Source: Chitinophagaceae bacterium
GTDB taxonomy: Bacteria > Bacteroidota > Bacteroidia > Chitinophagales > Chitinophagaceae
DNA length: 64,000 bases
Reading direction: 5' to 3'
Assembly (NCBI GenBank): GCA_028288595.1
Contig: JAQBNK010000083.1
Location: forward strand, 1 to 64,000
Shown here: in pieces, positions 9,221 through 53,368 of the stretch
How positions within the stretch are numbered: position 1 is the stretch's first letter
Layout of the letters: each line of letters starts with the position of its first letter
Notes under the pieces: model-generated
Told to the model about the DNA's origin: nothing
Seen by the model: only the letters and a program-made list of their open reading frames with translations
Databases searched by the model: none
Position numbers and translations under genes: made by a program

Positions 9221-9365
9221 TCCTTTCCGTTTATACTGTTAATATATATAAAATTCCCTGCCAAAAAATTCGGTAGGTTGTTAATTTCCCACAGGATGGT
9301 TATAACTATTTGACTTCAGTTATCAGTGAAAGATTAGTTAATGCTCCTAAAAAGACAAAGCTTAG

Positions 9366-9602
9366 GGAAATCGAAAATCGAAAATGGAAAATCGGAAATG
9401 AAACATCAAAAGAGTCAAGATTATTTTGGCTCATGAAAGATGAAGCTCAGGGTAAATCGAAAGTGGAAAATTTAAAATCGAAAATGATATATCAAGAGAG
9501 AGATACATTATTTTGGTTGATGTAAAAGAAAGAAAATTGAAAATAAAAAATTCGAAAATAGTAATCACCCATTTTCGATTTTAAATTTTCCACTTTCGAT
9601 TT
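9366..9602. repeat. Heptamer repeat tract (AAATCGA word) with a 33-bp perfect inverted repeat
   Basis: Non-coding stretch between the divergent helical-protein gene and the E2 gene end. 9366-9403 is a run of 7-bp units (GAAATCG, AAAATCG, AAAATGG, AAAATCG, GAAATGA). A second run at 9454-9486 is the exact reverse complement of 9570-9602, a 33-bp perfect inverted repeat with an 83-nt loop. An imperfect direct duplication of about 57 bp (starting near 9391 and 9475, sharing ATTATTTTGG) lies within. The right arm ends two bases before the E2 stop codon (9604-9606). A 71-codon reading frame through 9310-9525 is an artefact of the repeat. Confidence 0.85.
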
Positions 9603-9603
9603 C

Positions 9604-10950
9604 CTAAAAGACTTCCCTGTCCCTATCCCAGCTTTCAAATTCCTTCGCCACCTGCGTAAGGAATGAGGCGCCAAGACTACCATCAACAATGCGGTGGTCA
9701 TAACTTAAAGAAAGGAACATCATATGACGGATACCAATTGTATCACCCTGTTCGGTTTCAATAACAACAGGTCTTTTTTTAATGGCGCCAACTGCAAGTA
9801 TCGCAACTTGTGGTTGATTAATGATGGGTGTTCCCATCAGGCTGCCAAAAGTCCCCACATTTGTTAAGGTGAATGTTCCGCCGTTAGTATCGTCAGGTTT
9901 TAATTTATTATTTCTTGCATTATCGGCCATCGTATTTACCGCTTTACTTAGACCAACCAGGTTTAAATAATCGGCGTTGCGTATAACAGGAACGATCAGG
10001 TTGCCTGTTGGCAATGCTGTTGCCATGCCGATATTGATATCTTTCTTAATGATGATCCTGTCGCCGTCAAGCGAGCTGTTGATCAGGGGAAAACGTTTGA
10101 TCACTCTAACTAAACAATCAATAAAAATAGGTGTGAAGGTGATCTTTGTGGATTCTCTTTTCTCAAAATCCTTTTTTACTTTTTCTCTCCACAAAACCAT
10201 ATTGGTAACATCAGCTTCAGCAAAACTCGTTACATGCGGGCTGGTATGTTTGCTGTCTACCATGTGTTTCGCAATCAGCTTACGCATTCGATCCATTTCG
10301 ATGATCTCAACGTTAGAGCCGTATTCAGTTGGCGGTTGTTGTTTGCCGGTTGGCGGTTGAGAATTGGCTGTTGACGATTGCGACCTTTCCTGTATTTTGC
10401 CAACTGCCAGCTGCCCACTGCCAACTGGCTTTCCCGACTGCACATACTGCAAAATATCTTTCTTAGTAACCCTTCCTTCATTTCCGGTACCGGGAATATT
10501 TTCCAATTCGCTCATACTTATCCCTTCGCTGTTGGCGATGTTCAGCACAAGTGGTGAATAAAAGCGGTTACCACTTCCGCCTTTCATGCTCGGTTGTGCA
10601 TGTTGCGGCTGAGGTGCATAAGGTACTTCATTCGCTTTTGTTTCTGGTTCGGGAGGAGATGCCTTAGGCGCAGTCGCCGTAGCAGGCGCATCAACAGTAA
10701 CAGATCCGTTCGCAATTTCTATTCTTGCGATAACAGTTCCTATCGGAACCACATCGTTTTCTTTAAACAATACTTCGGTAATAACACCTGCCGCAGTAGA
10801 AGGTACTTCGCTGTCAACTTTATCTGTCGCAATTTCCAAAACGGTCTCGTCCTGTGAAACGGCGTCTCCAGCTTTTTTATGCCACTTTAAAACAGTGGCC
10901 TCCATAATACTTTCACCCAATTTGGGCATCAACAGGTCAACAATTGCCAT
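9604..10950 (-). CDS. 2-oxo acid dehydrogenase complex E2 (dihydrolipoamide acyltransferase)
   Basis: Acyltransferase core of a 2-oxoacid dehydrogenase complex (pyruvate, 2-oxoglutarate or branched-chain type), moving acyl groups from lipoyl-lysine to CoA. Domains in order: lipoyl domain 1-80 with the lipoylated K44 in ATDKVDSE; Ala/Pro linker 85-125; peripheral-subunit-binding domain about 128-170; second linker; catalytic domain 212-448 with DHRIVDG (H419, D423). The second linker (residues about 174-209) is encoded by a heptamer repeat like those found between genes, which is very unusual. The E3 partner may be the LpdA at 26942. No E1 genes are adjacent, so the substrate is undetermined. 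Confidence 0.92.
   Translation of the reverse strand: MAIVDLLMPKLGESIMEATVLKWHKKAGDAVSQDETVLEIATDKVDSEVPSTAAGVITEVLFKENDVVPIGTVIARIEIANGSVTVDAPATATAPKASPPEPETKANEVPYAPQPQHAQPSMKGGSGNRFYSPLVLNIANSEGISMSELENIPGTGNEGRVTKKDILQYVQSGKPVGSGQLAVGKIQERSQSSTANSQPPTGKQQPPTEYGSNVEIIEMDRMRKLIAKHMVDSKHTSPHVTSFAEADVTNMVLWREKVKKDFEKRESTKITFTPIFIDCLVRVIKRFPLINSSLDGDRIIIKKDINIGMATALPTGNLIVPVIRNADYLNLVGLSKAVNTMADNARNNKLKPDDTNGGTFTLTNVGTFGSLMGTPIINQPQVAILAVGAIKKRPVVIETEQGDTIGIRHMMFLSLSYDHRIVDGSLGASFLTQVAKEFESWDRDREVF
10327..10430. repeat. Heptamer inverted-repeat tract inside the E2 coding sequence
   Basis: Left arm 10327-10382 is eight consecutive 7-bp units (AGTTGGC, GGTTGTT, GTTTGCC, GGTTGGC, GGTTGAG, AATTGGC, TGTTGAC, GATTGCG). 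Right arm 10396-10430 is five units of the opposite orientation (TTTGCCA, ACTGCCA, GCTGCCC, ACTGCCA, ACTGGCT). The same vocabulary occurs in intergenic sites at 11040 and 32915. It is translated as the Gln/Ser/Pro-rich E2 linker; because 7 is not a multiple of 3 the units are read in all three frames in turn. Confidence 0.85.
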
Positions 10951-11039
10951 GCATGCAGTTTTTTATTCAAATATGGTAAGCAGGAAAGCGTTCTTTCCAG
11001 CGTCAAAAGTAAAATAATCGGCCGAAACGGGATAGAAAT

Positions 11040-11118
11040 AGTTGGCGGTTGGCGTGGTCAACTATCAATTGCCAACTGCCAATTATTTTCTGCCAACCGC
11101 CAACCATCAACTGTCAAC
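11040..11118. repeat. Heptamer inverted-repeat tract (AGTTGGC word) at the cinA 3' end
   Basis: Left arm begins AGTTGGC-GGTTGGC. The right arm reads TGCCAAC-CGCCAAC-CATCAAC-TGTCAAC, i.e. the reverse complement vocabulary, with a short spacer, so a long imperfect hairpin can form. The cinA stop codon (11107-11109) lies inside the right arm, and the last residues of CinA (VDS) are encoded by it. The rest of 10951-11106 holds only the E2 leader. Confidence 0.82.
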
Positions 11119-12402: not shown

Positions 12403-12485
12403 AAAGTCAAAAGTAAAGTTCAAAATCTAAAAAAGATACTTCGTGGCAGGTCGTGTTTTTGCATTTTGAATTTTTACTTTTGACT
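12403..12485. repeat. Heptamer inverted-repeat tract (AAGTCAA word) upstream of dacB
   Basis: Left arm 12404-12431 reads AAGTCAA-AAGTAAA-GTTCAAA-ATCTAAA. Right arm 12461-12485 reads CATTTTG-AATTTTT-ACTTTTG-ACT, pairing with the left arm over more than 20 bases with one bulge. The right arm ends directly before the dacB ATG (12487). It would form a hairpin in DNA or in the dacB leader RNA. Confidence 0.82.
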
Positions 12486-12486
12486 C

Positions 12487-17098: not shown

Positions 17099-20000
17099 AT
17101 GCAATTCACCGGCCGATTCCTTACCGTAACGATTGCCTGTTTGTCATTATCTGTTTCAGGTTTTGCCCAGGCAACAATGGTTAATAACGATCCTGACGCT
17201 GATTTTAAATTAGCCAAAGAGTTATACCAGAAAAATGAATTTAGCCTGGCCTTCCCGCTGTTTCGCACGCTGGCGCAGGAAACGAACAGGAGAACCAATC
17301 TACCAGTTGAGACTGAACTTGAACTGAAATATTATTCTATTGTTTGCGGGTTGAAGCTGAATGATGAAACACTCCTTAAGCCGGCACTTGATTTTATTGC
17401 GCTTGAACATGCAGAGCCCAGAACAGAAATGATGTCTTTCCAGGTGGCCGAATATTATTTCAGGCAGCAGAAATATTCTGACGCTGCGGATTATTATAAT
17501 AAGACCAACATCGCCAACCTGAGTAACCGGGAAGTAGCCGATATGAAATTTCATCTTGGCTATTCTTATTTTACGATGCAGCAATTAGAAAAAGCCTATC
17601 CTTTATTTAATACCATTCGTCAAATACCCGCCGATCCTAATTATATAGATGCGAATTATTATTATGGATTTTTATCTTTTTATGATAAAAACTATAACGA
17701 AGCTTTGAACTCTTTTAAAATCGTTGAATCGCAGCCTACTTACCAGAACATTGTTCCTTATTATGTTGCTCAGATCTATTATTTTAATGGCGATAAAACA
17801 AAAGCGGCTGAATATGCAGCAGCGTCTTTGAAAAGAGGCGGGCAATATTATGATCTTCAGCTAAAACAACTGGTGGGTCATATTTATTTCGAGGAGCAGG
17901 AGTTTGAAAAAGCATTGCCTTTTCTTGAACAATATGTTAGCGCTACGGAGAAAGTGAGGAGAGAAGACTTGTATGAATTGTCTTACTGTTATTATGTAAC
18001 CAAACAATTTAACAAAGCGATCAGCGGGTTTAAAGAATTGGGTGGTAAAGAAGATTCGCTGGCTCAGAACAGTATGTACATGCTGGCAGATTCGTATTTA
18101 AAAACGAACCAGAAGAACAGCGCCAGGAATGCATTTTTGTTTTGCGCATTGAACAGCAGTAACGCCGTTCAGAAAGAGATTTCGCAATTTAATTATGGCA
18201 AACTTTCTTATGAATTAGGTTATACGAGTGTTGCACTGAGTGAACTGCAAAAATATATTACAACTTACCCGCAGTCGACTAACATTGCCGAGGCAAGAGA
18301 ATTACTGGTGAATGTAATGGCGAACAGTAATCAATATAAAGATGCATTGGAGCTGATCCAGGGTTTTAATATCCGCAGCCAGTCAGTCAATAAAATTTAC
18401 CCAAAAATATTATATGGCAGGGCGGCTGAACTGATCAATGATCAGCAATTGACTTCCGCGGATTCATTATTAAACATCATTACCGTTATACCTAATAACG
18501 AAGAGCTGTTACCGTTCGTGCGTTTCTGGAAAGGAGAGATCGCTTTCAGGAATAATATGCCTGATTCAGCTGTGTCTTATTTAACACGTTATCTCGATCA
18601 TCCCGCAACGAACGGAGAAGTGAATGTGAACAATGCCCGTTATACACTGGGATATGCATACATGCGGGAAGACCAATACCAGGCTGCGTTACAGCAATTC
18701 GGAAGTATTGTATCAGCGGTTAGCAGGAGCTCATCACCAATGGAGCAGGATGCGTATTTACGCATTGCCGACTCGTACTTCATGCTGAAAAATTATACAA
18801 GAGCATTGCAGATGTATGATATTGTGTTGAACAATGACCTGCAGGGCGCTGATTATGCATTGTATCAAAAAGCGGTGATCAGCGGTGCAAGCAATCGTAA
18901 TAACGAAAAGCTGACGTTGCTTCAATCGGTTTCACAACGTTTCCCATCTTCCGCATTAGTGGGTGATGCTTATATGGAAATGGCGAACACTTATCTTTCA
19001 AATGAAAATTACCGGGAGGCAATTAAGCCACTTAATAGTGTACTGGCTGCGAAAAATGCAGAAGGCTTAAAACCGCAGGCTTATTTAAAATTAGGTGTGG
19101 CTTATTTTAACCAGGATGATAACAACAGTGCTTTAACCAATTTTCAAAAACTGATCAGTACTTATCCTAACTCGCAGGAAAGCGACCAGGCTGTGGAATA
19201 TGTTAGAAATATTTTTATTGAAACCCAAAGACCCGCAGAGTTTGTAGCATTCATGCGCCAGAACGGTAAACAGGTGAGCTATAGTGAAGAAGATTCATTA
19301 AGCTATGTTGCTTCTAACATGCGCTATGAAAGTAAAGATTATGAAAGCGCATTGAAAGGCTTTCAATCTTATTTGCAACAGTTCCCCCAGGGAAAATATG
19401 CAGTAGAGGCCAATTACAATACTGCTGTTATCTACAACACACGCAAAGATTTCGCGAATGCTTTAAGATATTATTCCGCGGTTGCTGAAAAGGCGCCTAA
19501 TAAATATGCAGAGCAGAGTGTATTGCAGGCGGCAAGGATCAGTTATTTTGAATTGAAAGATTATGCAGCGGCACAACAATATTTTAACCTGTTAAAATCG
19601 ATCGCCACCACTCCGGAAAACAGGCTTGAAGCGATGCGGGGATTGCTGCGTACACAATTTAAATTATCTCAGTGGACGGAAGCCGGCGCTAATGCGCAGG
19701 ACCTGTTATTGCAAAAAGGAATAGCTGCTGATGATAAGATGATGGCCAATTTAGTAATCGGAAAAAATGCCCAGCAAAATAACCAGTTGGAAGAAGCATT
19801 AGCCGCTTACCGTTCTGTTGTTGCTCTTGGTAAATCAGAGTTTTCTGCTGAGGCCCGTTATCACATCGCTGAAATATTAACCCAGCAAAACAAATTACCG
19901 GATGCAGAGAAGGGGGCTTTTGAAGTAATCAATAAATCGGGTTCTTATGATGTGTGGATCACAAGAGCATATATTTTATTGGGTGAAGTTTATTTCAGGC

Positions 20001-20140
20001 AGAAAGATTATTTCAATGCCGAAGCAACATTGAAAAGTGTGGTGGAAAATGCTACAGACGCGAGCCTGAAGAAGGAAGCACAGGATAAACTGGATATAGT
20101 AGTTGCAGAAAAGAACAGGAACAGTAAGGTAGAGCAGTAA
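17099..20140 (+). CDS. Large exported tetratricopeptide-repeat protein
   Basis: A 1013-aa protein with a signal peptide (1-24, ending SGFAQA) and a body of consecutive TPR-like helical hairpins, e.g. YFRQQKYSDAADYYNK, AQIYYFNGDKTKAAEYAA, ANTYLSNENYREAIKPL, LGVAYFNQDDNNSALTNFQKL. Such proteins act as periplasmic or outer-membrane-associated scaffolds. It is the first of four co-directional genes (outer-membrane barrel, HU-CCDC81-like, methyltransferase), a conserved-looking Bacteroidota envelope grouping. The start at 17099 directly opens the signal sequence. The partner and substrate are unknown. Confidence 0.88.
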   Translation: MQFTGRFLTVTIACLSLSVSGFAQATMVNNDPDADFKLAKELYQKNEFSLAFPLFRTLAQETNRRTNLPVETELELKYYSIVCGLKLNDETLLKPALDFIALEHAEPRTEMMSFQVAEYYFRQQKYSDAADYYNKTNIANLSNREVADMKFHLGYSYFTMQQLEKAYPLFNTIRQIPADPNYIDANYYYGFLSFYDKNYNEALNSFKIVESQPTYQNIVPYYVAQIYYFNGDKTKAAEYAAASLKRGGQYYDLQLKQLVGHIYFEEQEFEKALPFLEQYVSATEKVRREDLYELSYCYYVTKQFNKAISGFKELGGKEDSLAQNSMYMLADSYLKTNQKNSARNAFLFCALNSSNAVQKEISQFNYGKLSYELGYTSVALSELQKYITTYPQSTNIAEARELLVNVMANSNQYKDALELIQGFNIRSQSVNKIYPKILYGRAAELINDQQLTSADSLLNIITVIPNNEELLPFVRFWKGEIAFRNNMPDSAVSYLTRYLDHPATNGEVNVNNARYTLGYAYMREDQYQAALQQFGSIVSAVSRSSSPMEQDAYLRIADSYFMLKNYTRALQMYDIVLNNDLQGADYALYQKAVISGASNRNNEKLTLLQSVSQRFPSSALVGDAYMEMANTYLSNENYREAIKPLNSVLAAKNAEGLKPQAYLKLGVAYFNQDDNNSALTNFQKLISTYPNSQESDQAVEYVRNIFIETQRPAEFVAFMRQNGKQVSYSEEDSLSYVASNMRYESKDYESALKGFQSYLQQFPQGKYAVEANYNTAVIYNTRKDFANALRYYSAVAEKAPNKYAEQSVLQAARISYFELKDYAAAQQYFNLLKSIATTPENRLEAMRGLLRTQFKLSQWTEAGANAQDLLLQKGIAADDKMMANLVIGKNAQQNNQLEEALAAYRSVVALGKSEFSAEARYHIAEILTQQNKLPDAEKGAFEVINKSGSYDVWITRAYILLGEVYFRQKDYFNAEATLKSVVENATDASLKKEAQDKLDIVVAEKNRNSKVEQ

Positions 20141-20141
20141 G

Positions 20142-20185
20142 GGAGGATGCAGGATACAAGATGCAGGATGGATGATGCAGGATGA
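20142..20185 (+). repeat. Heptamer repeat tract (GATGCAG word)
   Basis: Six units of the GATGCAG/GATACAA type fill the 70-bp space between the TPR gene stop and the barrel gene start. Only one orientation is present, so no hairpin arm is seen. It begins two bases after the TPR stop codon. Confidence 0.75.
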
Positions 20186-26838: not shown

Positions 26839-26868
26839 ATGAGTAATGAGAGATGAGTAATGAGTAAA
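26839..26868 (+). repeat. Heptamer repeat tract (ATGAGTA word)
   Basis: Four perfect-period units ATGAGTA-ATGAGAG-ATGAGTA-ATGAGTA between the histidine phosphatase and lpdA. A related A/T run, ATTCTTA-ATTCTTA-ATTAAAC, follows at about 26917-26937 just after the lpdA stop. No opposite arm is visible. Confidence 0.7.
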
Positions 26869-28380: not shown

Positions 28381-28450
28381 GTCAAAAGTCATTAAGTCAA
28401 TTGTCATTGGTCATTAATGACTCATAGACTATTGACCAATGACTTACTTG
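28381..28450. repeat. Heptamer inverted-repeat tract (GTCATTG word) upstream of lpdA
   Basis: Units such as GTCATTA, AGTCAAT, GTCATTG, GTCATTA in the left half. GTCATTGGTCA (28403-28413) is exactly repeated in inverse as TGACCAATGAC (28433-28443). Lies in the 389-bp non-coding gap between lpdA and ppc, which otherwise holds copy 2 of the CGACGC element and another heptamer pair; no gene is supported there. Confidence 0.78.
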
Positions 28451-28583: not shown

Positions 28584-28737
28584 AAGTCAAAATTCAAAGT
28601 AAAAATTAAAAAACACGCATGGTATTACTTTCAAACATTTGTAAGTATAAAATCTAAAATTAAGACTTGAATTATTCGTTATGATTGATGAACTTACAGC
28701 GACCCTTTTTTGACTTTTTACTTTTGAATTTTGACTT
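28584..28737. repeat. Heptamer inverted-repeat pair (AAGTCAA word) upstream of ppc
   Basis: Left arm 28584-28614 reads AAGTCAA-AATTCAA-AGTAAAA-ATTAAAA. Right arm 28714-28737 is its reverse complement over 15 exact bases (AAGTCAAAATTCAAA) plus seven more after one bulge. About 100 nt separate the arms. The right arm stops three bases before the ppc ATG, the same placement and vocabulary as at dacB. Confidence 0.82.
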
Positions 28738-32835: not shown

Positions 32836-32914
32836 AACTGCCTGCGAAAATAAGGAATTACATACAAAAAGACTTTTGGTTAAGCCGGTGTTTATATACA
32901 AGCATCATGCAAGG

Positions 32915-32986
32915 ATAGTTGGCAGTTGATAGTTGGGCGGTTGGCAGTAAATGCCAACTATTCACCACCATCTGCCAACCAATTTA
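32915..32986. repeat. Heptamer inverted-repeat tract (AGTTGGC word) at the etfA 3' end
   Basis: Left arm 32915-32950 (AGTTGGC-AGTTGAT-AGTTGGG-C-GGTTGGC) faces right arm 32951-32986 (TGCCAAC ... CTGCCAACC). The etfA stop codon (32984-32986) is the end of the right arm. Same vocabulary as the tracts at 10327 and 11040. Confidence 0.8.
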
Positions 32987-33948: not shown

Positions 33949-33983
33949 TAATTAAAAATTAAAAATTCAAAATGAGAAAAGTC
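33949..33983. repeat. Heptamer repeat tract (ATTAAAA word) upstream of etfA
   Basis: Units ATTAAAA-ATTAAAA-ATTCAAA-ATGAGAA directly before the etfA start codon. One orientation only. Confidence 0.6.
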
Positions 33984-36395: not shown

Positions 36396-36490
36396 ATATG
36401 TTGAATGTTGTATGCTAAATGTTGAATGAAGGCACATAATGAACTGGTATGTTTCATACAACATTTAACATTCAAATTCAGCATAAATCA
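36395..36490. repeat. Heptamer inverted-repeat tract (AATGTTG word) between convergent genes
   Basis: Left arm 36395-36432 (ATGTTGA-ATGTTGT-ATGCTAA-ATGTTGA-ATGAAGG) faces right arm 36453-36490 (TTCATAC-AACATTT-AACATTC-AAATTCA). The left arm begins at the last base of the 36189 gene stop codon, and the right arm includes the ilvE stop codon (36488-36490), so the repeat fills exactly the space between the two stops. Confidence 0.83.
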
Positions 36491-40105: not shown

Positions 40106-41545
40106 ATGAATAAGATTATTGAAAAAGGCGAACTGAAATACATGCAGGTTGCTGAAGGTATTGAGCAGTTAATTCATGAAGACATTTTTAAAATAGGCGA
40201 TAAGCTTCCTTCGGTGCGTTTACTCAGTAATGAACAAGGTATTAGTGTGGGCACTGCGTTCCAGGCCTATTATCATTTAGAAGGAAAAGGCCTGATAGAA
40301 TCACGTCCGAAATCGGGTTATTATGTGCGTTATAATACCCGCAGAATGCCCGGGGTTCCCGCGACGATTGTGCCCTTTGTAAAAGAAAGTGAGGTCAGCA
40401 TAAATGAAATGGTCGCAGACGTTTACAATTATATTACTGCTGACGACCTGATCAATTTTTCATTTGCCTGCCCTGATATTTCTTTGTTACCCGCCGCCAG
40501 GATAAATAAGTCGGTTGTGCATGCCATCCGCAGTAATAAAAATCATTGCCTGCACTATGAACATTTGCAGGGTAATGTTGAACTAAGAAAACAAATAGCC
40601 AGGTTATGTTTTAACTGGGGCGCTAAATTAACAGGAGATGATATTATGATCACTTCGGGCTGTATGGAAGCCATGATGATGTGTTTGAAAGCAGTTACAA
40701 AAGCAGGTGACACTGTTGCAATAGAGAGCCCTACATATTTTGGCATCTTCCAGGCCATGGAATCGCTGGGTTTAAAAGTGGTGGAAATTCCGTGTGACCC
40801 TGTTACCGGGATGGACCTCGCCGCATTTGAAAAAGCAATTAAAAAATTCAACATTAAAGCTGCTGTTGTGGTTCCCAGTTTTAATAATCCTACCGGAAGT
40901 TGTATGCCGGATGCTAATAAAAAAAAGCTGGTTGAACTGATTACTAAATACCAGGTTCCGCTGATTGAGGATGATATTTATGGTGAATTATATTTTGGAA
41001 AAAATCGGCCCCGCACCTGCAAAACATTCGATAAAGAAGGAATGGTCTTATACTGTTCTTCTTTATCAAAATCCTTAGCGCCTGGTTACAGGATCGGGTG
41101 GTGCATTGGTGGACGTTTTCTCAACGAGATCCGCCATTTGAAATCTATCCATAATTTATCAGCGCCTACTATAACGCAAGTTGCAATTGCTCATTTTTTA
41201 AGCATCGGCCGATTTGATTATCATTTAAAGCAATTGCGAAAATCCCTGCATGTACAATGCCTGCGTTACATACAGGCAATAAGTGAATATTTTCCTGAAA
41301 GCACATGTACGTCGCGGCCTGAAGGCGGATTTGTATTATGGCTGGAGCTTGATAAGAAAATTGATTCTTATAAATTGTATAAGGAAGCATTGAAGCATCA
41401 TATATCCGTAGCGCCGGGACGTATATTTTCAACCCATCCTGATTACAGTCATTGCATCCGTATCAGTTACGGAAAACCATTTACGCCTGATATAGAACAT
41501 GGGCTGAGGGTGCTGGGACAACTTGTGAAAAAGATGAGCCGGTGA
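40106..41545 (+). CDS. MocR-type GntR regulator with aminotransferase-like domain
   Basis: A 479-aa transcription factor: N-terminal winged HTH of the GntR family (LKYMQVAEGIEQLIHEDIF, KLPSVRLLSNEQGISVGTAFQAYYHLEGKGLIESRPKSGY boundaries, about 10-75), linker, then a fold-type I aminotransferase-like domain with the PLP lysine in YCSSLSKSLAPGYRIGW. PLP- or amino-acid-dependent regulator; family members control PLP, GABA or amine pathways. Divergent from the decarboxylase-exporter pair, its likely target. A heptamer tract begins at its stop codon. Confidence 0.9.
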   Translation: MNKIIEKGELKYMQVAEGIEQLIHEDIFKIGDKLPSVRLLSNEQGISVGTAFQAYYHLEGKGLIESRPKSGYYVRYNTRRMPGVPATIVPFVKESEVSINEMVADVYNYITADDLINFSFACPDISLLPAARINKSVVHAIRSNKNHCLHYEHLQGNVELRKQIARLCFNWGAKLTGDDIMITSGCMEAMMMCLKAVTKAGDTVAIESPTYFGIFQAMESLGLKVVEIPCDPVTGMDLAAFEKAIKKFNIKAAVVVPSFNNPTGSCMPDANKKKLVELITKYQVPLIEDDIYGELYFGKNRPRTCKTFDKEGMVLYCSSLSKSLAPGYRIGWCIGGRFLNEIRHLKSIHNLSAPTITQVAIAHFLSIGRFDYHLKQLRKSLHVQCLRYIQAISEYFPESTCTSRPEGGFVLWLELDKKIDSYKLYKEALKHHISVAPGRIFSTHPDYSHCIRISYGKPFTPDIEHGLRVLGQLVKKMSR

Positions 41546-41639
41546 AAGTCGGAAATGAGAAATCGAAAATCGGAAATCGAAAGTCGAAAATGAGAAATCC
41601 CGAAATCCGAAAATCTGAAAATCTGAAATCTGAAAACCA
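41543..41639 (+). repeat. Heptamer repeat tract (GAAATCG/GAAAATC words)
   Basis: Thirteen 7-8-bp units (GAAAGTC, GGAAATG, AGAAATC, GAAAATC, ... TGAAATC, TGAAAAC) start at the MocR stop codon and run to 8 bases before the MmcQ start. One orientation only. It has no stop in one frame, which makes the MmcQ frame appear 35 codons longer than it is. Confidence 0.83.
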
Positions 41640-49057: not shown

Positions 49058-49087
49058 ATGTTGAATGATAAATGTTGAATGATATTG
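49058..49087. repeat. Heptamer run (GTTGAAT word) upstream of the rhomboid gene
   Basis: Units GTTGAAT-GATAAAT-GTTGAAT-GATATTG. A similar short run GATGAGT-GATGAGT lies at 49583-49596, upstream of rlmH. Single orientation in both. Confidence 0.55.
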
Positions 49088-52689: not shown

Positions 52690-52763
52690 GGCTGCGTAGC
52701 TCAATTGAATAGAGCATCTGACTACGGATCAGAAGGTTTCAGGTTTGAATCCTGACGCGGTCA
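52690..52763 (+). tRNA. tRNA-Arg (anticodon ACG)
   Basis: Cloverleaf can be folded by eye: acceptor GGCTGCG with CGCGGTC, D-stem GCTC/GAGC, anticodon stem TCTGA/TCAGA with loop CTACGGA (anticodon ACG), and T-stem TCAGG/CCTGA with loop TTTGAAT. Discriminator A at 52763; no encoded CCA. The T-loop has TTTGAAT instead of the usual TTCGAAT. It reads CGU codons (and CGC/CGA after A-to-I editing). The accessory island starts immediately downstream, so the gene is a plausible integration site. Confidence 0.9.
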
Positions 52764-52797: not shown

Positions 52798-53368
52798 ATT
52801 TGACCGACCCCTTTGATTTTTCATTCAGTCTATTGATTATCAAATAACTATTTGCAGTATGCTTGAAATTATGTTCGTCCTTTTTTTCTTTAGGGTAATC
52901 AAACTCCTGTTGGAAATTGAATCTCAAAAAATTTCGATTTTTCAAATTTGCAAACAATTTGCAAACATTTTCTAAAAATTGCTTGATTTTAAGCGATTTG
53001 TTTGTTGCATATTTTTTTCAAAAAGCAAAGAACTATTCAAAGCAAAATTAAAAGATTTCATAGTTCATGGGTCAAACAATAAACAATATTATTTAGACAT
53101 TTATATTTAATCCTACTGTTGGCTAAAGTGTTTTTTTGATTTTCAGTAGCAACTGGCGGCCGGTTTTTTTCAAGCCATACATGATACCACTAAAAATAAT
53201 TGACAAAGTGAGTAGCACAGTTAATGTACATTTTGTTCATGGGGCAATCATATTTTCCCTGACACACAAAAGGCTTTTGCCGTTGCAAAATGCCGACACA
53301 TATTACGTGGGTAACTTTTATTAAAGTAAACTTATATTCCAAGGTTAATTCAGGAAATTCGTCTAAGT
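52798..53368. other. 571-bp gene-free stretch at the island's left edge
   Basis: No convincing gene; a 62-codon frame at 53136-53324 has no coding features. It holds a perfect 11-bp tandem repeat ATTTGCAAACA at 52946-52956 and 52957-52967. A small inverted repeat ACTTT/AAAGT lies just before the PIN gene (around 53313). The composition is more A/T-rich than the core region. Confidence 0.5.

Follow-up and report, generated by a model that had tools for sequence, protein, structure and literature searches.

Dispersed heptamer tracts in a Chitinophagaceae genome are arms of two-armed cassettes

Tracts of short head-to-tail words are scattered over the window, by which we mean the whole 64,000-nt stretch of Chitinophagaceae DNA analysed here, and the true unit behind them is not the tract but a two-armed cassette, in which two inward-facing arms of 25-35 bp, made of one 7-bp word (elsewhere an 8- or 9-bp word), enclose an interior. 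We consider that the tracts are probably the arms of small (~70-200 bp), non-autonomous, REPIN-like mobile hairpin elements, which would be moved by an enzyme encoded elsewhere and tolerated beside stop codons.

The dispersed system of 7-bp tracts that an earlier note on this DNA had described is real. Intergenic autocorrelation at lag 7 was 0.311 versus 0.278 in dinucleotide-preserving shuffles (z 6.4; 7.5 kb, 40 gaps), so that the excess over shuffled intergenic DNA that the note had put forward as a check is present; lags 14 and 21 gave z 3.7 and 3.6, and all remaining lags of 1-30 had |z| < 2.5. At least 18 of 28 lag-7 matches occurred at 14 places in the 64 kb, versus only 0-3 places at lags 5, 6 and 8-13. 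Thirteen of the 14 sites listed in the note were significant at lag 7 (p 0.003-0.023), the exception being 13936 (p 0.13). The period was said to be always 7; indeed 7 is the commonest, but the site at 41543 also scores 24/28 at lag 8, and the g11 genomes described below carry 8- and 9-bp families. As for the claim that most larger sites have an inverted second arm, an inverted partner within 200 bp was significant at seven of the 14 sites (11040, 12403, 26839, 28381, 28584, 32915 and 36395) and arm scans added a second arm at 9366 and 10327, giving nine of 14; the inverted repeat at 26839 is a hairpin with a GC-richer loop and not the word ATGAGTA. The 4.14-Mb draft genome from which the window comes is rich in the word AAAAGTC and full of such tracts: AAAAGTCAAAAGTCAAAA with at most two mismatches had 93+110 matches genome-wide versus 11+6 for the reversed control, and the genome's own words formed 47 inward versus 2 outward pairs within 200 bp. 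Two of its contigs (G000:C161, L004; G000:C117, L003) end within perfect AAAAGTC arrays of at least 10 units. Above the Rfam gathering score the window contains only a tRNA at 52690 and no structured-RNA match for the tracts. An 11-bp tandem repeat (AATTTGCAAAC) at 52945-52971 lies outside the 7-bp system.

The anchor site, 12403-12485, is an imperfect hairpin that folds far better than shuffles as single-stranded DNA (z -4.1). Its left arm (12405..12430, plus strand; word AAAAGTC/AAAAGTA, AGTCAAAAGTAAAGTTCAAAATC) contributes to an inverted repeat 12405-12417/12473-12485 (p 0.016), its interior forms the loop (12431..12455), and its right arm (12456..12486, minus strand; 22/28 at lag 7, p 0.003; arm scan 0.87) ends 1 base before the ATG (12487) of a peptidase S13 gene. 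The site lies between two divergent start codons, of a cinA-like gene on the minus strand and the peptidase S13 gene on the plus strand, and this gap measures 126 bp in the window versus 64-75 bp in six tract-free orthologs. Upstream, the word AAATCGA forms an arm at 9369..9399 (plus; 23/28 at lag 7, p 0.003; arm scan), and arm scans gave a second copy at 9455..9485 (plus) and a closing arm of the reverse complement at 9571..9601 (minus), 3 bp before the stop of an E2 gene (9604-10950, minus). The second copy belongs to an 86-bp direct duplication (9351-9516) that includes a heptamer arm. Within the linker of the E2 gene itself lie a left arm with the word GTTGGCG (10328..10375, plus) and a right arm with the reverse complement of GTTGGCA (10399..10427, minus), both found by arm scan, in a site significant at lag 7. 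Further on, the left arm AGTTGGCGGTTGGC (11038..11053, plus; inverted repeat 11038-11053/11092-11107, p 0.016) is followed by right arms with GTTGGC/GTTGATG words (11057..11118, minus; arm scan) that overlap the 3' end of the cinA-like gene.

Further along the window, a heptamer tract AGGATGC (20142..20184, plus; 21/28 at lag 7, p 0.003) runs from the end of the gene 17099-20140 to the start at 20172, with no second arm found, and an ATGAGTA arm occupies 26839..26867 (plus; 20/28, p 0.003; arm scan 0.96). A small inverted-repeat hairpin with the word GTCATTG lies at 28403..28443 (arms 28403-28416 and 28430-28443); the left arm AAGTCAA/AAATTCA at 28584..28611 (plus; inverted repeat 28584-28598/28723-28737, p 0.016) is paired with the right arm TTTTGACTTTTTACTTTTGAATTTTGACTT at 28707..28737 (minus; arm scan and inverted repeat), 3 bp before the ATG (28741) of a PEP carboxylase gene. 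Another inverted-repeat hairpin, with the word GATAGTT/GGCAGTT, spans 32914..32961 (arms 32915-32927 and 32949-32961), and an AATGTTG cassette spans 36397..36475 (arms 36397-36430 and 36453-36475; inverted repeat p 0.016, arm scan). AATTAAA (33950..33973, plus; 21/28, p 0.003) and ATGTTGA (49058..49084, plus; 16/28, p 0.023) are single arms, and a mixed 7/8-bp tract of AAATCGA and GAAATCC (41544..41636, plus; 22/28 at lag 7, 24/28 at lag 8) begins at the stop of the gene 40106-41545.

The two-armed layout was characterised in three near-complete genomes of sister species from the sister genus g11, A (G010), B (G205) and C (G134), over 400 kb of shared synteny scanned for 16 arm families; alignment identity was 89% for A-B and 85% for A-C, and the sister species span 85-90% DNA identity. 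The 206 gaps of A held 128 tracts at lag 7, 41 at lag 8, 15 at lag 9 and 0-1 at other lags. Lag-7 tracts numbered 128, 110 and 67 in the gaps of the three genomes versus 0 in dinucleotide shuffles, and inverted repeats 98, 93 and 67 versus 0 (in A, 98 of 206 gaps at a score of at least 16). Of the inward-facing neighbouring arms in A, 92 of 96 lay within 250 bp of each other, versus 2 of 95 outward-facing ones; across A, B and C there were 92, 87 and 57 inward and 2, 0 and 1 outward pairs within this distance. The same word was present in 80 of the 92 inward pairs of A, versus 12 of 93 outward neighbours across a gene. Since arms pair inward within 250 bp and mostly by the same word, the vocabulary that the earlier note had assigned to each site is the family of the local cassette: the words do differ by site, but they are family words common to many sites and genera.

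Cassette length is family-specific (permutation p below 0.001), with the 8-mer family AATTTGAA mostly at 133-147 bp and the ACTGAATA family mostly at 83 or 99-101 bp. The 9-bp families (GAACGCAGATTTTCATGATTGTCATGATT, GGCACACGGATGACACGGATTGGACTGATT; L031-L090) have the same two-armed layout as the 7-bp families. At alignment site 25 of C (L071-L090), a AATTTGAA 8-mer cassette is nested inside an AATTGAA cassette, with the junction ATGTGGC mirrored in both arms. In the main two families of A, identity between arms is 92-93% even where the interiors of the loci are unrelated, which is close to the likeness of the two arms within one cassette. Since an arm had to be 78% similar to a consensus to be detected, this between-locus identity is inflated, but the contrast between alike arms and unrelated interiors is real despite that bias. 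In cassettes conserved between species the arms are 93, 90 and 89% identical, the interiors 85, 80 and 82% and the flanking DNA ~88-90%, and double compensatory arm changes number 24 versus ~5 under independence. Arm identity above that of the interiors, together with this excess of compensatory changes, indicates that the arms are conserved or homogenised relative to the interiors, as in REPINs. The interiors fold weakly (z -1.4 versus -1.0 in control intergenic DNA), and strong interior hairpins were rejected as a feature of the cassettes on this small difference.

Arms and interior are exchanged together as one unit. When cassettes of A were compared with the orthologous gaps of B, the same word was found in 29, another word in 24, a single detected arm in 17 and nothing in 5. 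Among A-B gaps with one cassette in each species (28 with the same word, 24 with another), the interior was homologous in 22 of 28 versus 1 of 24; the corresponding values were 14 of 19 versus 0 of 16 for A-C and 19 of 28 versus 0 of 9 for B-C. In the three species pairs pooled, the interior was thus unrelated in 48 of 49 word-changed comparisons and homologous in 55 of 75 word-kept ones. The flanks are homologous right up to the arms: the unaligned stretch has a median of -1 to 3 bp, and in 84% of cases (n=49) it is no longer than 12 bp on either side. At site 50 three unrelated words, AATTGAA, TGTACGA and GTTATGA, occupy one gap in the three species; of the 24 A-B word changes, 13 involve clearly unrelated words and about 11 involve close ones (AATTGAA/GTTGAGA, AATTAAG/AATTAAT). 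The orthologous gaps, whose comparison the note had suggested, do show a hairpin tendency, and in the sister-species alignments words are gained and lost as units; at the 90% identity of the closest species pair there is no clean recent empty site. Dispersal is shown by full copies at distant loci, two of 142 bp lying 105 kb apart in opposite orientation. Further, same-family interiors were homologous in 10.5% of pairs versus 0.27% for different families in A (~40-fold), a part of these homologous pairs stemming from a duplicated gene cluster.

Under the mobile-element reading, an element would consist of two inward copies of a 25-35 bp arm, each of four to five head-to-tail words, flanking a spacer whose length is set by the family and whose sequence drifts, and it would move as a hairpin-forming unit helped by the enzyme encoded elsewhere. 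Most insertions would be purged from coding and promoter DNA, leaving survivors after stop codons and between convergent genes; a stop-bearing word placed after a gene would close the reading frame harmlessly in all three frames, and stop-free words (GTTGGC, AATCGA) could persist in frame within genes. A word swap between sister species at an unchanged position is best read as a new insertion accompanied by loss of the earlier cassette, the gap containing little else that is dispensable, and recombination between strains is the main alternative for this step. Among 203 cassettes, whose arm ends are uncertain, target-site duplications numbered 12 versus 7.8 (sd 2.6) at k=4, 5 versus 2.6 (sd 1.6) at k=5 and 0 at k=6 to 9; with no such duplication and with their hairpin form, the cassettes would be more in keeping with a single-strand (HUH/Y1-type) transposase than with a DDE enzyme. 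A Y1/RAYT partner in particular was unsupported: Y1_Tnp was present in 10 of 10 AAAAGTC-dense and in 7 of 10 sparse genomes, and no arm pair was found in the flanks of the 11 Y1_Tnp loci checked, a subset of the genes in these 20 genomes. The only Y1 gene of the window's own draft genome is one 148-aa IS200-type copy. Candidate autonomous elements, with same-family arms round an ORF, were set aside too: to judge by the translations, the enclosed ORFs appear to be ordinary genes, among them those for an ABC-F-like ATPase and a sigma factor. Same-family pairs mostly have unrelated interiors though their arms are 92% alike, which simple copy-paste would not give unless arms were homogenised or interiors captured locally.

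Several other origins were weighed against mobile hairpin elements. Replication slippage of 7-bp units in place, with the second arm made by template switching across the hairpin and with no mobile element, would agree with the fact that many bacterial genomes have heptanucleotides as their most frequent long simple repeats, for which slippage was proposed (Mrazek 2007, as cited in PMC4679880), with differences in unit number between the sister species at several gaps, and with the excess of double compensatory arm changes, which arm-to-arm copying would give. We nevertheless hold it unlikely: one and the same 32-bp arm is found at numerous loci whose interiors are unrelated, full 142-bp copies lie at distant loci, interiors change along with the word and lengths are specific to the family. 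Slippage on its own can account neither for arms that are near-identical across many loci, nor for set lengths, nor for the replacement of arms together with the interior. The replacement of whole units with intact flanks would also follow if homologous recombination in the genes on either side swapped intergenic alleles among strains, their diversity being kept up because the hairpins serve as interchangeable terminators; this agrees with the enrichment of convergent gaps and with the terminator-like hairpins in 7 of 73, 9 of 67 and 6 of 49 interiors (2, 0 and 0 in shuffles). Allele exchange is improbable as the whole explanation, for it accounts neither for the presence of a single family in many unrelated gaps within one genome nor for the same words in distant families. 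A terminator would also be unwanted at some cassette sites, such as the divergent starts round 12403-12485 and the gene interior at 10327.

Classical MITEs, with the terminal inverted repeats of a DDE insertion sequence and heptameric sub-repeats within them, share with the cassettes the terminal inverted repeats, the intergenic location, the 70-200 bp size and the high copy number, and minisatellite-bearing MITEs exist in the same phylum (BrickBuilt, PMC4596501); but the target-site duplication is not enriched, no insertion sequence with such ends was found in 1.2 Mb of g11 DNA scanned, and interiors are usually unconserved within a family, so that we regard this origin as very unlikely. It is a long shot that a new kind of enzyme uses a small mutable template to write head-to-tail words of 7, 8 or 9 nt and places them round intergenic DNA as a matched inverted pair. 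If arms were written in this way, the arms of a whole genome would change word in concert while gaps and genes stay put, AATTGAA to GTTGAGA, AATTAAG to AATTAAT and AATTGAA to the 8-mer AATTTGAA would be such concerted changes, and written arms would amount to a new kind of repeat-writing mobile system. A composition artefact or assembly error, to which the A-rich words and the two contig ends within AAAAGTC arrays could point, has a negligible chance, because the g11 shuffles yielded no lag-7 tract and no inverted repeat and three independent assemblies agree at the conserved sites 44, 51 and 73.

Placement was described in the earlier note as a rule of gene ends. It holds for gene edges in general, the anchor at 12403-12485 lying between two start codons; the site at 10327 lies within a gene, and the rule is partly mechanical. 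Outer cassette ends contacted stop versus start codons in ratios of 71:18, 67:4 and 50:7 in the three g11 genomes, and the occupied fraction of convergent gaps was two to three times that of divergent gaps (0.53, 0.55 and 0.39 versus 0.19, 0.23 and 0.16). Cassettes take up 75-82% (about 78%) of the gap that holds them, so that they touch gene edges only modestly more often than randomly placed ones would (0.54 versus 0.44 per end in A), and active targeting of gene ends was rejected, this filling explaining most of the flushness. The stop codon of the gene lay inside the arm in about a third of stop contacts (25 of 75, 26 of 68 and 19 of 50). As 7 and 8 are not multiples of 3, a stop-bearing word shows a stop in all three frames within 21-24 bp, and therefore such words end any reading frame that runs into them.

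Words deep inside reading frames are stop-free on the coding strand, such as GTTGGC in the E2 linker, which is too variable among relatives to date the insert. A methylmalonyl-CoA mutase fusion holds the in-frame stop-free words AAATCCG/AACCATC and AATTCAA; the positions of its two tracts vary, and a net gain seems likely for the first alone (residues 182-202). An Lhr-like helicase (L003:8255-10867, plus strand) has ~35 extra in-frame residues with AAAATTC- and GCCAACT-type words between conserved motifs, an insert absent in eight relatives with a shorter loop there, and by sequence comparison it appears to be a clean case of in-frame gain. A GC-rich stem with a T run was found in ~10-13% of interiors, most interiors being without one, with convergent gaps enriched and divergent and intragenic cases present; a putative side role as a transcription terminator or 3'-end hairpin is possible.

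Among known systems, REPINs (Bertels and Rainey 2011, PMC3116915) are pairs of REP sequences that depend on RAYT transposases for their mobility, and the cassettes resemble them in the inverted conserved pair, in a spacer constrained in length and folding, in extragenic location, high copy number and several families per genome; the two conserved inverted sequences round a spacer, and the constraint on spacer length, were observed here directly. In contrast, a REPIN or REP arm is a short palindrome with a GTAG or CGTC tag (PMC3733652), whereas by inspection the cassette arms, for example AATTGAAAATTGAAAGTTGAAAATTGAAAATG, are untagged, non-palindromic direct arrays of 7-9 bp units; the cassette arms are also far more diverse, their families replace each other in one gap, and no RAYT was flanked by cassette arms at the 11 loci checked. 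The terminal inverted repeats are a MITE trait, and the BrickBuilt MITE of Porphyromonas gingivalis (PMC4596501) is likewise from Bacteroidota, intergenic and built of tandem repeats within an inverted-repeat element; in BrickBuilt, however, 23-bp repeats are central and the ends match IS5-family terminal repeats, whereas in the cassettes the ends themselves consist of the repeats, and the scan for a matching insertion sequence gave none.

Previous work described TAACTGA heptamer direct repeats in Beggiatoaceae, cyanobacteria and some Bacteroidetes (MacGregor 2015, PMC4679880). In the available text of that paper they are, like our tracts, 7-bp head-to-tail and intergenic, patchy across phyla, accompanied by other heptamers and absent in the shorter gap of a close relative; they differ in being of one word, direct and mostly just upstream of start codons, with only one indirect repeat reported in the main genome, and the same text describes neither inverted pairing nor unit exchange. 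Long simple sequence repeats (Mrazek 2007, as cited in PMC4679880) likewise have period 7 as the commonest, and there it is the unit length that is described, not a two-armed unit or a family length. Head-to-tail 7-bp units are in excess over chance in our data as in heptanucleotide simple sequence repeats; an isolated direct tract as the whole structure is ruled out by the inward pairing of 92 to 2 and the exchange as units. By definition the cassettes are neither REPINs nor standard MITEs, and they are more than a simple sequence repeat. Among open-access journal papers, searches yielded accounts of heptamer repeats, REPINs and MITEs, and none that describes the cassettes; the view that the tracts are distinct from known heptanucleotide repeats and match no named family is supported.

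Between a quarter and a third of the larger intergenic gaps in one genus contain a cassette; it takes up most of the gap, and in species 10-15% apart an unrelated cassette often stands in its place. The cassettes would thus strongly shape the 3' ends of genes, terminators and the spacing of genes in a bacterial family, besides supplying new protein segments in frame, and the arm pair provides a concrete, testable unit behind the long-noted excess of 7-bp repeats in bacteria. AAAAGTC is patchy in the Chitinophagaceae (family f1), where ~12 of 396 genomes had more than 50 hits at one mismatch and most had none; two congeners (G004 and G128) had ~200 versus 0 hits. The same words, with the same internal variants (AATTAAG/AATTAGG; ATTGAAA/GTTGAAA), occurred sporadically in genomes from other families and other classes of the phylum, and four of ten such genomes sampled (G861, G603, G930 and G524) contained the two-armed periodic cassette, some with GATAGAG and TTAACAT words. 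This patchy occurrence of the same words across Bacteroidota makes a transferable system plausible. A pattern search of viral contigs gave no complete AATTAAG cassette. Fifteen contigs of a viral collection (L157-L171) carry an exact AATTGAA or AAAAGTC arm and are possible transfer vehicles or misassigned host DNA. In a published survey (PMC3733652), GTAG repeats were reported in Proteobacteria, Cyanobacteria, Chloroflexi and the PVC group, with Bacteroidetes named for CGTC repeats only. GTAG-tagged palindromes of the classical REP form (GTAGGGGCGAATCGCATTCGCCC, GTAGAGACGC..GCGTCTCTAC) coexist with the cassettes in A and B (L031-L070), often inside them.
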